Assembly (NCBI GenBank): GCA_947627255.1
Contig: CANQVI010000006.1
Coordinates: 1-47,993 of the forward strand
Direction: 5' to 3'
DNA: 47,993 bases
DNA from: an uncultured Clostridia bacterium
GTDB lineage: Bacteria; Bacillota; Clostridia; TANB77; CAG-465
Under the pieces are notes generated by a model, which was not told where the DNA came from, did not search any database, and saw only the letters and a program-made list of their open reading frames with translations. The position numbers were made by a program, and so were the translations under genes. Shown here one piece after another: positions 708 through 30,697 of the stretch. The first letter of the stretch is position 1, and each line of letters opens with the position of its first letter.

Positions 708-2168
708 TTAATTATTTCCACTTGTTTTCTTTGGTTTTCTTTCTATTTGATATTCTTGTTGCTCTTTCTTTTGCTCTAACAATTCTTCATTTGCCTTTTT
801 CTCTATTTCATCTTTGGCAATATTTTGAATTCTTTCAATATCTTCTTCATCAATTTCATCCATATTTTGAACACCAGATCTTAATTGATCAAAAAACATA
901 TCATCATTTCTTTCTTGTGTTTTTTCAACATCTTTTTTTGTTTCTGAATATGTTGACTGTTTTGGTGTTTGTTCAATGTTTTCATCATATATTCTTCTTG
1001 ATGTTTGTGAGTCACCAATTTCTTTTGCGGCTTTATAGTTTCCTTTATCTATTTGTGATCTTTGTGCCTGTATAGTGTAATCGAAATTACGTTCATCTCT
1101 TACCTGCTCATCTCTTTTTACTTCATCAATAATTTCAGCCATTTTTGAATCAGTTACTTTTTGAGAATTGTTTTTAGAATCATCTAAGTTTTTATTATCT
1201 ATTCTACTATTTACAGCAGATTTATTTTCAAGTCCTGCCTCTTTAGCAAGTCTTTCATTTTCACCTTGAACTTCTAATTCTTGTGTATATTCATTTAATG
1301 AAGGCATATTTTGAATTAAATCATAGTTAGCTTTATCATATGCTTGTTTATACATAGCAATTTCTTGTGGAGTTTTTGATTTATCCATCATTGCATCCAC
1401 ATACTCTCTATGTTTTGCTTCTCTTACTTTATATAATCTATTAATTTCTATTGACCTTCTATTAGTTGTAGCTTCAACGCCTTTTTCAACATACTCAAAT
1501 TTATTTTTAAAATCTTCTCTTTGATTTTTTATATTTTTGTCCATTGAAAAATCTTTACCTGTTGTTCTATTATATCTAAGCTCAATTCTATCTAAATTTC
1601 TTTCCATAGCAATCATTTGCATAGCTTCTTTACTACTTATTGCAACGTCCATTGCTCCAAACTGAGAATTTTTCATTTTCAAAGCTAAAGATGCATAATC
1701 TTTATACATACTTTTATATGTAGCCTTATATATTCTTGATTGTAATTCTTTCTTTTTATCTTTTTCGCCTTCTTTTTTAGGCTCATTATTTTCTTCTTCA
1801 ATTAGTTCTTCATAGACTTCATCTTTAGTCTTTTTGTCTTGACCTTCTAAAGTTGAGTCAATTTCTTTCTTCATTTCCTCATGTTCTAATTGTTTCTTAG
1901 CTATTTCTTGTTGATTTAAATCATCTCTAGATATCTTTAAATATTTTTTCATTAAATCATTTTGGATATCTTCCTTATTTTGATTGCTATATATCTCTAG
2001 AATTTGATCATTAATAGTATTATCCTCTTTTTTAATAGGTTTTAACTTTTTAGATATTTCTTTATATGTTTGTGCTACTTCTCTTTGTCCATACGTTTTA
2101 GCTAAAGCATCATTTACATTATAGTCTCTACCGCTAATATTATCTAAAACTTTATCCCATAATCCCAT
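708..2168 (-). CDS. Highly charged, probably coiled-coil protein of unknown function
   Basis: Long intact ORF (486 aa), rich in K/E/D/Q/N; no signal peptide or TM segment seen; overlapping antisense ORF looks spurious. Confidence 0.8.
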   Translation of the reverse strand: MGLWDKVLDNISGRDYNVNDALAKTYGQREVAQTYKEISKKLKPIKKEDNTINDQILEIYSNQNKEDIQNDLMKKYLKISRDDLNQQEIAKKQLEHEEMKKEIDSTLEGQDKKTKDEVYEELIEEENNEPKKEGEKDKKKELQSRIYKATYKSMYKDYASLALKMKNSQFGAMDVAISSKEAMQMIAMERNLDRIELRYNRTTGKDFSMDKNIKNQREDFKNKFEYVEKGVEATTNRRSIEINRLYKVREAKHREYVDAMMDKSKTPQEIAMYKQAYDKANYDLIQNMPSLNEYTQELEVQGENERLAKEAGLENKSAVNSRIDNKNLDDSKNNSQKVTDSKMAEIIDEVKRDEQVRDERNFDYTIQAQRSQIDKGNYKAAKEIGDSQTSRRIYDENIEQTPKQSTYSETKKDVEKTQERNDDMFFDQLRSGVQNMDEIDEEDIERIQNIAKDEIEKKANEELLEQKKEQQEYQIERKPKKTSGNN

Positions 2169-25786: not shown

Positions 25787-25844
25787 CAAACTAACGTTTG
25801 TTAAATTATATCATATTGATTTTTTGTTGTCAAACAAAAGTTCG
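25787..25844 (-). promoter_or_regulatory. lexA promoter with two SOS-box-like operators
   Basis: -35 TTGACA (25828-25833), 17-nt spacer, -10 TATAAT (25805-25810); boxes CAAACTAACGTTTG (25787-25800) and CAAACAAAAGTTCG (25831-25844), each near the Gram-positive consensus CGAACRNRYGTTYG. Confidence 0.7.
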
Positions 25845-25896: not shown

Positions 25897-26976
25897 CTAT
25901 TCTTCTTGACCGAAGCAAACTCCCATATCTCTTGCTGTCTTACATAAGTCATTTGTTGCCATATCTAATATTCGTGGTATTCTCTCTTTAGGAAATGCCA
26001 TTTTAACAATGTTTCCGCCCTTAATTCCAACTATATATCCTGGCTCACCATGAACTAGTAATTGACAAGCTGCATTTCCAAGTCTTGCTCCAAGTATTAT
26101 ATCTGATGTAGTAGGCTCTCCACCTCTTTGAATATGTCCTAAAATAGTAGCTCTAGTTTCATATCCAGTTAATTGCTCTATTTCTGCTGCTAATTTTTGT
26201 GATACACCACCATATCTTTTTTGCTCAAAACTATCTTTTACAATTTGAGATATAGTTTCTTCTCCACCTTTTTCTTTAGCTGCCTCAGAAACTGCAATAA
26301 TTACATATCTTTTTCCAGAATTCATAATTTCATTAACTTTATCACAAACTACTTTCAAGCTATAGTCTTGCTCTGGTAAAAGTATTATATCAGCACCTGA
26401 TGCAAAACCAGCATAAAGTGTTAAATATCCAGATGTTCTACCCATAAGTTCAACTACCATTACTCTCCTATGAGAATATGCAGTTGTAATTATTTTTCTT
26501 ATTGCATCAACAGCAGCATCTATTGCTGTTTGGAATCCTATTGTAGGCTCAGAAGCAGACATATCATTATCTATAGTCTTTGGAATTCCAACTGTTGGCA
26601 TTCCGTGTTCATAAATTACTCTGGCAGAGTCTAATGTACCATCTCCACCTATTATTACCATACCTTCTACGCCTTGTTTTCTTAATTTTTCAATTCCTTC
26701 ATCTACTCTATCTTCAAATTCTCCAGTTTCTTTATTATAATAATGGAAAGGACATTCTTTATTAGAAGATCCAAGCATTGTTCCACCTTTTGTTTCAATA
26801 CTTCTTACAACATCTGCATTAAGTGGAATATATCTTCCTTCTACAAATCCTATATATCCATCCATAACACCTATCACTTCTATTTGCTGAATACTAGCAG
26901 TCATAACTATAGATTTAATAGCACTATTTAATCCTGCACAGTCTCCTCCAGCTGTCATAATTGCAATTTTTTTCAT
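25897..26976 (-). CDS. pfkA: 6-phosphofructokinase
   Basis: IAIMTAGGDCAGLNSAIKSIV, VIIGGDGTLDSARV, PKTIDNDMSASEPTIGFQTAID, VELMGRTSGYLTLYAGFASGAD. Confidence 0.93.
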   Translation of the reverse strand: MKKIAIMTAGGDCAGLNSAIKSIVMTASIQQIEVIGVMDGYIGFVEGRYIPLNADVVRSIETKGGTMLGSSNKECPFHYYNKETGEFEDRVDEGIEKLRKQGVEGMVIIGGDGTLDSARVIYEHGMPTVGIPKTIDNDMSASEPTIGFQTAIDAAVDAIRKIITTAYSHRRVMVVELMGRTSGYLTLYAGFASGADIILLPEQDYSLKVVCDKVNEIMNSGKRYVIIAVSEAAKEKGGEETISQIVKDSFEQKRYGGVSQKLAAEIEQLTGYETRATILGHIQRGGEPTTSDIILGARLGNAACQLLVHGEPGYIVGIKGGNIVKMAFPKERIPRILDMATNDLCKTARDMGVCFGQEE

Positions 26977-26988
26977 AATAATCTCTCC

Positions 26989-28350
26989 TCACTTTAACAT
27001 ATTCTTTTCTTCAATACACATTTTTTCAGTTGCATATGATTTTAAAATATTAGGTAATTTTTTATAATTATTCTTTTCTATTAGATATTTTAATGTATCT
27101 TTTGGATTAGCTTTATATAATTCTCTTAGTACCCATCCATTTGCTTTTTGAATCAAATGGTATTCATCATAAAAGACATCTTCTAATACTTTCATAACAA
27201 GCTCTTTTCTGTTGCTTTTTGCAAAGTATAGTAATGATACTATGCCTATTCTTTTAATCCAAATATTAGCCGATTTTGTGTATTTTCTTAGCATATTATA
27301 TACTTTTTTATCCGATTCATTCAAATTTAATTTTCCTATACAAATAGGAGCACATGAATCAACTAAATCCCAGTTATTAATATGATTTATATTTTCATCT
27401 ATAAAATTCTTTATTTCATTTTTATTATCACTATTTGCCATATTTACTAATGAAAAAATAGCAAATCTTCTATAATCATGAATATCAGAACTAATAAAGA
27501 AACTTAAAGTATCTAACGAAATTATATTATACCACATTTTTGCTAATTTGCGAAGTCTTGGAATTTTAATTCCAAGTAAAATATCGCCTTTTGCATATCC
27601 ACCATCAACTACTTGTAAAGTCCTAGCCTCAAAATCTAAATTTGCCTCTTTAGGCATTTTCTCTATATTTTCTATTATATTTAATATAGCTATTTTATCT
27701 TTCAAGTTTTCTTTGCTTTTAGTTAAAAAACTTCCTACTACTAAACTATTTGCTCCTGCTCTTATTGGTAGATTAAAAATATTATCATTTATTCCGCCAT
27801 CTACTTGTATTAATACATTTTTATATTTTTCTTTTATTTCTTGTATTTTAGTAGTAGCACTTTCTATATACTTTTGACCACCAAATCCAGGCTCAACAGA
27901 CATTACTAATATTTTATCTATATTTTTAATATATTTTTCTAATACTTTTATATCTGTATTTGGTTTTAAAGATACACCAATTTTTAAATTATTTTCTTTT
28001 TTCTTTTTTAATAAATAATTAAATGCACTATCAAAATTATCTATTTCATAATGAATTGTTATATCTTTACATCCATATTCAATAGCTCTGTCTATATATT
28101 TATCCTCAACAGGCTTTTCAACCATTAAATGTGTATCAATATAAAACCCATACTCTTTTACTAATTTTATTTTTTCAATATCAACTCCTTTATTAGGGAC
28201 AAATTTATTATCCATAACGTCAAAATGAATAGATATATCTAAAATATTTTCTACTTTACTCTTAGATAATTCTTTTTGTATAGCTTTTACATTTTCTAAA
28301 AATTCAGATAAATTATCTACATTTAAAATCGAAATAGATAAATTAGTCAT
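26989..28350 (-). CDS. Fusion protein: ribulose-phosphate 3-epimerase - AlkD-like DNA alkylation repair (HEAT-repeat) domain
   Basis: N-terminus SISILNVDNL...HFDVMDNKFVPN...DTHLMVEKP...VMSVEPGFGGQKYIESA...IQVDGGIN (Rpe); C-terminus YAKGDILLGIKIPRLRKLAKMW...NNWDLVDSCAPICIGK...WIKRIGIVSLLYF...HLIQKANGWVLRELYKANP (AlkD). Confidence 0.9.
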   Translation of the reverse strand: MTNLSISILNVDNLSEFLENVKAIQKELSKSKVENILDISIHFDVMDNKFVPNKGVDIEKIKLVKEYGFYIDTHLMVEKPVEDKYIDRAIEYGCKDITIHYEIDNFDSAFNYLLKKKKENNLKIGVSLKPNTDIKVLEKYIKNIDKILVMSVEPGFGGQKYIESATTKIQEIKEKYKNVLIQVDGGINDNIFNLPIRAGANSLVVGSFLTKSKENLKDKIAILNIIENIEKMPKEANLDFEARTLQVVDGGYAKGDILLGIKIPRLRKLAKMWYNIISLDTLSFFISSDIHDYRRFAIFSLVNMANSDNKNEIKNFIDENINHINNWDLVDSCAPICIGKLNLNESDKKVYNMLRKYTKSANIWIKRIGIVSLLYFAKSNRKELVMKVLEDVFYDEYHLIQKANGWVLRELYKANPKDTLKYLIEKNNYKKLPNILKSYATEKMCIEEKNMLK

Positions 28351-28418
28351 ATATTACCTCCATTTTTTCACATTTAAATATTACTATAATTAAATCAATA
28401 TTTCAAGATGTAAGAAAT

Positions 28419-28443
28419 AAAAAACCGCAAGAGCGGTTTTTTT
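28419..28443. terminator. Intrinsic terminator downstream of rsgA
   Basis: aaaaaccgc aaga gcggttttttt. Confidence 0.8.
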
Positions 28444-29347
28444 ACTTATATCTTCTGTCATATTTTTCTTTTAACTTTTCGTATATATATACATATCTTT
28501 CATATCTACCTTTATCTATAACATTTGTATTCACTTTTCTTTTAACATCACAAACACTTTCATCTTCTATAATATGAGCACAATCATCATAATCACATTG
28601 GCATTTTTCAAATTCAGTATAATATTTTCGTAGTTCTTTATGCTCTATATCATATAACTCATAGCTTGAAAAACCAGGTGTATCTAAAATATATGTATTT
28701 TCTCCAATATTATATAAATTTACTGATTTAGTTGTATGTTTTCCTCTTTTGCTTTTTCTACTTATATCTCCAATTTGAACTACATGATGTGAATCTATTA
28801 TTTCCTTTGTAATAGAAGACTTACCAACTCCAGAATTTCCTGAAAACGCAGATGTTTTATTTTTTAGTAATGCTTCTAAATTAGTTATACCTTTTTTCTC
28901 TTTAGCACTAGTAGATACAATAGTATAACCAAGTTTACCATATACATCTAGTATATATTCCATATCATTTTTAACAGATTCATCTTGACTAACTAAATCT
29001 ACTTTATTTATACATATAATAGGTTTAATATTTTTACTTAAACATAACACTATCTGTTTATCTAGTAATATATAATCTGGCTTTGGTGCACCAACAGATA
29101 CAACAATTATCATCTGGTCAATATTACTTACAGGTGGTCTTATTAATGAATTTTTTCTTGTAATAACAGAATTTATCATATAATCATCTAAGACTTTTTC
29201 TACACTAACTATATCGCCTACAAGTACATTATCTTTCTTTTTTAAATTTCCTCTAAGTTTTGCTGTAATTATTTCATCAGTACTTTCTACATTTAATATA
29301 TATATATCTAAATCTATTCTTATTACTCTTGCAATTATTTTTTCCAT
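28442..29347 (-). CDS. rsgA: Ribosome small subunit-dependent GTPase A
   Basis: Circularly permuted GTPase motifs ICINKVDLV, SAFSGNSGVGKSSITKEII, DTPGFSSYEL; zinc knuckle C..C..H..C. Confidence 0.95.
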   Translation of the reverse strand: MEKIIARVIRIDLDIYILNVESTDEIITAKLRGNLKKKDNVLVGDIVSVEKVLDDYMINSVITRKNSLIRPPVSNIDQMIIVVSVGAPKPDYILLDKQIVLCLSKNIKPIICINKVDLVSQDESVKNDMEYILDVYGKLGYTIVSTSAKEKKGITNLEALLKNKTSAFSGNSGVGKSSITKEIIDSHHVVQIGDISRKSKRGKHTTKSVNLYNIGENTYILDTPGFSSYELYDIEHKELRKYYTEFEKCQCDYDDCAHIIEDESVCDVKRKVNTNVIDKGRYERYVYIYEKLKEKYDRRYK

Positions 29348-30015: not shown

Positions 30016-30697
30016 CTAAATATTTGGTTCTTCAGGATATGATAAATCTACTGGATAAAAATTATTTATAAAATCGATATTTGCTTTATTATGAAAATTT
30101 CTAGAATATAAAAATTTCATTGTTTCCATATCTATCTCATCTAAATTTTCTCCATGTTCTTTTATAACATGCATAATTCTTTCTATTTGACTTACAGCTA
30201 CATTAATATCATCATTAATAACTAGCCAATCACAAACTTGTGAAGCTGATGCTATTTGTACTTTGCTCCTATTTATTCTACTAGCATCTCTATACTCCAT
30301 TTGAGCTATTAGCCTTTCACAATTTGGAGGAATTATGTATACAAAAATAGCATTTTTATATTTTTTCTTAAATTCTAATGCTCCTTTTGCACCCATATCC
30401 ATAATTAAAAACTTACCTTTGTTTTCTTCACTTTGCATATCAATTATAGGAGCACCGATACAAGAACCCGTCAACAACAGACTTTGCCATTAATGAGCCC
30501 TTTCTATCTAATTTTTCGTACTCCTCTTTAGTTATAAAATGATATTGTTCATTATCTCTTTCATTTGGCCTTTTAGGTCTAGTAGTATATGTAGATATCC
30601 TTTTATACGTATTAGTATCTTTAGCTAATAATTCATTTATTATTGTACCTTTTCCACCACCACTAGGGCCAGATATAACAACTAATAAATTATTCAT
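30016..30697 (-). pseudogene. Guanylate kinase-like gene disrupted by a one-nucleotide frame shift
   Basis: First ORF MNNLLVVISGPSGGGKGTIINELL...STYTTRPKRPNERDNEQYHFITKEEYEKLDRKGSLMAKSVVDG; second ORF GSCIGAPIIDMQ...LIMDMGAKGALEFKKKYKNAIFVYIIPPN. Removing one G from GACGGGTTC (plus-strand ccc 30467-30469) restores a continuous frame. Confidence 0.8.

Follow-up and report, generated by a model that had tools for sequence, protein, structure and literature searches.

The locus lies within a 47,993-nt stretch of DNA (the window) from an uncultured Clostridia bacterium, whose genome assembly comprises 1.40 Mb in 66 contigs at an estimated completeness of ~95%. On the minus strand, a frame of 453 codons at 26989..28350 runs from an ATG at 28350 to a TAA at 26989–26991 without an internal stop, and a Shine-Dalgarno sequence read from the DNA (GGAGG; 28357..28361, minus strand) stands 6 nt before the ATG. 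An earlier, sequence-only reading had placed this frame correctly but omitted its strand; its proposal that one 453-aa frame joins a ribulose-phosphate 3-epimerase-like (Rpe) half to an AlkD-like half is borne out by Pfam and PDB matches for both and by an NCBIfam match for Rpe, and all the motifs it quoted are found in the protein. Briefly, residues 1–229 (27664..28350, minus) make up an Rpe barrel, in which Pfam family Ribul_P_3_epim (PF00834) matches residues 33–208 (E 5.9e-43; 147 bits against a cut-off of 21.1), and residues 231–453 (26992..27660, minus) make up an AlkD-type HEAT-like repeat DNA glycosylase domain, in which DNA_alkylation (PF08713) matches residues 254–444 (E 1.4e-37; 129.9 bits against a cut-off of 21). 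Among PDB sequences, the first half matches Rpe structures including human RPE, and the second half matches B. cereus AlkD (3jxz; phmmer, 3.2e-13). Against NCBIfam, the Rpe half scores above the cut-off for the PRK05581 subfamily (NF004076; 174.7 vs 165) and falls short of the threshold for the TIGR01163 equivalog (146 vs 212.6 bits). This gene, rpe-alkD, is the sole match to the Rpe family and the sole match to the AlkD family genome-wide, and the proposed check for a second rpe accordingly returned none.

The gene follows rsgA (28442..29347, minus) and is itself followed after 12 nt by a 6-phosphofructokinase gene (pfk; 25897..26976, minus), both conserved neighbours identified by profile matches and locus comparison. 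The order in genomes carrying the fusion is rsgA, rpe-alkD, in some of them the MTA/SAH nucleosidase gene mtnN, then pfk and, where the flank reaches, lexA. A terminator-like hairpin (28419..28442, minus; 7 such sites found, 1.0 expected) occupies the rsgA/rpe-alkD interval and suggests that rpe-alkD has its own promoter. Control by LexA/SOS was considered and rejected, a scan for GAACNNNNGTTC at one mismatch giving 4 sites against 6.5 expected and none upstream of rpe. A perfect extended sigma-70-type promoter (TTGACA-17-TATAAT with TG; 25805–25833, minus) lies just upstream of lexA. In seven loci (L015, L018, L019, L020, L021, L025 and L026), an mtnN frame, assigned by NCBIfam for the L018 copy and by evident similarity for the other six, begins some 20 nt or less from where the fused frame ends; L017 has an amidohydrolase similar to MTA/SAH deaminases behind the fused gene. 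SAM is an endogenous DNA methylator, and this neighbour is a weak hint at an imaginable "SAM by-product" theme; most fused genomes lack the arrangement, mtnN is absent behind rpe-alkD in the window's own subclade, and the window's own PNP-family gene is located elsewhere. The E. coli operon dam-rpe-gph likewise places rpe by DNA-related genes, but there as operon neighbours, with neither fusion nor AlkD, whereas the window gene is a fusion. Further along the window (30016–30697, minus), the genome's only match to guanylate kinase (gmk) spreads over two frames, with a short interruption of the profile (80 to 85) between them; because gmk is normally essential, the break has the look of an error in the sequence or of a frameshift that happened recently.

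A search of the family, covering 37 genomes, recovered the full-length single frame in 24 of the 28 genomes of the genus (the window's own included) and in the sole genome of a sister genus (g3), giving 25 fused proteins at 45–70% identity to the window protein. The four exceptions within the genus are G001, in which a one-base insertion close to the junction breaks the frame and leaves both halves open (locus L028, about 1500–1520, reverse strand); G019, which gave no match and is 85% complete; and G020 and G024, which encode Rpe alone. Outside these 25, no fusion was found among 388 genomes of the order, where the other listed matches lay in rpe-sized frames, or among 245 class and 399 phylum genomes at a cut-off of 1e-45, which a fusion of unrelated halves could escape. 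A scan of 84,980 species using the AlkD half as query gave ten fused members of the same clade among the best 80 loci, and the flanks of the 70 standalone AlkDs (up to 3 kb per side) held no Rpe frame; independent fusions elsewhere were thus rejected for the order, class and phylum sets and for these best 80 relatives. Three genomes of another genus of the family (g5; G034, G035 and G036, 94–100% complete) had no rpe or AlkD match, an apparent loss of Rpe altogether.

To place the two halves relative to each other, AlphaFold2 was run on the 25-row alignment and returned a model with a mean pLDDT of 95.4, a pTM of 0.92 and no low-confidence linker; at this pTM for two domains, their mutual placement is confidently predicted. 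Foldseek recovered both folds from the model: ranks 1–39 were all Rpe or allulose-6-P 3-epimerase structures (target-normalised TM 0.76–0.86; human RPE 3ovr, 0.82, E 1.1e-15), and AlkD chains followed at 0.68–0.72 by target (5uuf, 0.72). The last Rpe helix in the model, residues 216–230 (27661..27705, minus), stands at the place of AlkD helix A. It is the final helix of the barrel, where the solo Rpe of G024 stops, and residues 216–230 are also those against which standalone AlkDs align their N-terminal helix. We infer that this single helix serves both domains, which in the model form one rigid, linkerless unit.

The Rpe half retains every residue expected to hold the metal and to catalyse. 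Aligned to human RPE, His42 and Asp44 (28219..28227; human His35 and Asp37), His74 (28129..28131; human His70) and Asp184 (27799..27801; human Asp175), all on the minus strand, are invariant in 25/25 fused proteins; we take His42, Asp44, His74 and Asp184 to be metal ligands, with the two aspartates also acting as acid/base. Ser7, Met46, Met76 and Met150 are equally invariant, and the VEPG-x-GG-Q stretch is mostly so, Gly158 being altered in two proteins (L012 and L014). The Rpe half had been described as having a short N-terminus, and its activity had been doubted for reading MDN instead of MDG. Neither point finds support: strand 1 (residues 3–7) is present, with Ser7 and Leu9 invariant, and the third position of "MDN" is free among relatives (N, G, K, L, A or Q), so that the substitution is immaterial given that all metal and catalytic residues are invariant and that the genome has no other rpe. 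Transketolase is present in the genome, and Rpe therefore has its pathway. In comparison with known Rpe (PF00834, PRK05581, human RPE 3ovr), the fused protein shares the whole barrel, the metal and acid/base residues, the place after rsgA and the status of only genome copy, but differs in its C-terminal AlkD extension and its score below the equivalog cut-off.

The AlkD half combines intact catalytic residues with altered DNA contacts. The catalytic trio of AlkD, Trp109, Asp113 and Trp187 in B. cereus (PMC8626424), corresponds to Trp327 and Asp331 (27358..27372) and Trp406 (27133..27135), and Arg148 corresponds to Arg367 (27250..27252), all on the minus strand; each is invariant in 25/25 fused and 70/70 standalone proteins. 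In helix B, Thr244-Leu245-Gln246 (27613..27621, minus), the equivalents of B. cereus Tyr27-Met28-Lys29, replace the [FY]-F-K motif. Its first aromatic residue (F/Y) occurs in 68/70 standalone AlkDs vs 0/25 fused proteins and its lysine in 62/70 vs 0/25, the fused proteins carrying T/L/I, then L/I, then Q/M/N/S (n = 25). Because a basic contact at the Lys29 position is missing throughout (Gln, Met, Asn or Ser in 25/25), we class the domain as AlkD-type, not canonical AlkD. The standalone set consists of relatives at about 30–42% identity only and was collected by patterns outside helix B, so that its selection did not predetermine the helix-B contrast; in the aligned B. cereus AlkD, the first 32 residues agree with Tyr27, Met28 and Lys29 as named in two papers. 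In B. cereus AlkD, the K29A substitution reduces affinity for abasic DNA by a factor of 10,000 or more (PMC4433238). An Arg or Lys at residue 243, three residues ahead of the Lys29 position, is present in 22/25 fused proteins and might stand in for the lost lysine. Furthermore, Arg438 is present in 70/70 standalone relatives but replaced by Ser in all 25 fused proteins, and Arg434, likewise 70/70 in those relatives, is kept in 2/25; Arg267 (AlkD Arg43), Arg367 and Arg409 are retained, and the net charge of the domain (+6 to +17) stays inside the range of standalone relatives. This loss of the helix-B DNA-contact motif beside intact catalytic residues is unexpected, had been missed before, and makes the AlkD half, rather than the Rpe half, the one more in question. 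The domain thus resembles AlkD (B. cereus 3jxz/5uuf; PF08713) in its HEAT-like repeat fold and in the four residues above, and differs in sitting behind Rpe, with an Rpe helix at the helix A position and the Tyr27/Lys29 equivalents replaced. It also resembles AlkD2 (S. mutans 4X8Q) in having an altered N-terminal DNA-binding cap; membership of AlkD2, which lacks helix B and a residue-187 equivalent, is ruled out by the invariant Trp406 and a helix modelled at 238–245.

Both halves are under purifying selection, with dN/dS over six sequence pairs of 0.15–0.40 for Rpe and 0.12–0.26 for AlkD (the near-identical pair L011/L012, with too few changes, was left out). The fused AlkD halves group as a single clade (SH-aLRT 88) apart from all sampled standalone AlkDs, and sister-group genomes carry rsgA-rpe(-pfk) at the same place without AlkD; both observations agree with the earlier suggestion that rpe, in its canonical place, acquired AlkD at its C-terminus. 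G020 and G024 read rpe-pfk, with AlkD absent exactly at its place. On the Rpe tree, G024 nests inside the fused clade (branch 98/99) and has therefore lost AlkD, while the placement of G020 is not fixed. The nearest standalone relatives, about 30–42% identical, are spread across many phyla, DPANN archaea among them. Because AlkDs elsewhere in the order are of a different, "DNWAICD" type and only weakly similar (best 2.7e-15), the domain probably came from outside and was inserted once behind rpe. A single event, in which the common ancestor of the genus and one sister genus gained an AlkD coding sequence directly behind rpe, would account for the fusion, which would later have been lost at least once. 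Among other members of the order, loci L166–L172 encode a divergent AlkD-like protein with the DNWAICD motif, a separate subfamily.

The result is a new domain architecture made from known families. The literature searched yielded no description of Rpe fused to AlkD or to DNA alkylation repair, nor of any central-carbon enzyme fused to a DNA glycosylase; UniProt/InterPro may list the Rpe and AlkD architecture uncommented. The fusion is old, clade-wide and structurally tight, and it therefore lets one ask, in a natural setting, whether coupling metabolism to base excision can be useful. It is also a natural experiment on AlkD itself, in which 25 homologues keep the catalytic trio while the B-helix residues considered critical for damage recognition are replaced. 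The host belongs to a small-genome gut clostridial lineage, which holds its only Rpe and its only AlkD-type enzyme in one two-headed protein.

The explanation that we favour, and consider reasonably probable, is a bifunctional protein that pairs a putatively active epimerase with a putative AlkD-type N-glycosylase of remodelled damage recognition. The N-terminal barrel would be the cell's ribulose-5-phosphate 3-epimerase, interconverting ribulose-5-P and xylulose-5-P around a metal bound by His42, Asp44, His74 and Asp184. The C-terminal domain would most likely excise cationic alkylated purines (3-methyladenine, 7-methylguanine) from DNA, although such canonical excision is likely but not certain because the defining basic helix-B contact is absent. 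With the last barrel helix at the place of helix A, the domains would move as one rigid body without a linker; since Rpe now supplies helix A and [FY]-F-K is gone from helix B, damage recognition would be left to the remaining arginines, and the lesion spectrum may differ. The benefit of fusion would presumably lie in co-production or stability, not substrate channelling. Counting against the bifunctional protein are the helix-B lysine missing from all 25 proteins and the changes at Arg438 and Arg434; moreover, no mechanistic reason ties the epimerase to the glycosylase reaction.

Largely compatible with this explanation, and differing from it only on whether the fusion matters, is a frozen accident, to which we assign slightly less than an even chance: two independent enzymes on one chain, with no functional coupling, kept since the cell needs both and the structure fixes the junction. 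The housekeeping operon context, the intact Rpe of G024 and G020 after loss or absence of AlkD, and the want of a known shared substrate all favour such an accident, whereas the rigid joint and the near-universal retention in the genus hint at more than tolerance.

It is unlikely, in our estimation, that the AlkD half has ceased to be an alkylpurine DNA glycosylase and now acts on another substrate (branched or abasic DNA, RNA, a modified nucleoside) or tethers the epimerase to DNA. The missing [FY]-F-K, the two lost arginines that are invariant in standalone relatives and the Rpe helix in place of helix A are what such a change might leave, and non-catalytic HEAT-like relatives do exist (PMC4433238), AlkD2, AlkF and AlkG being AlkD-like folds without glycosylase activity. 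Against this, drift of the AlkD2 type would not require the equivalents of Trp109, Asp113, Trp187 and Arg148 to stay invariant in 25/25, and the charge of the domain is still that of standalone AlkDs. Less probable again is a new job, in which the rebuilt cap, made of the Rpe helix and the altered helix B, directs AlkD to another substrate or links epimerase activity to DNA binding; if true, it would tie flux through the pentose-phosphate pathway to the repair of DNA damage arising from metabolites or SAM.

We regard as very improbable a full-length product accompanied by AlkD made from an internal start. The window does offer an ATG at residue 232 and a TTG at 216, but neither has a Shine-Dalgarno sequence, no start codon in the junction is shared across the genomes, and in five of them residues 205–262 contain none; the separate proteins by internal initiation that the sequence-only reading had contemplated find no support here. 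An assembly or sequencing artefact, with a stop between two genes missed near residues 215–235, can be set aside almost entirely: the broken gmk frame on the same contig and the one-base frameshift at the G001 junction make sequence errors conceivable, but conservation refutes it, 25 independent genomes from as many species carrying the single frame at 45–70% identity.
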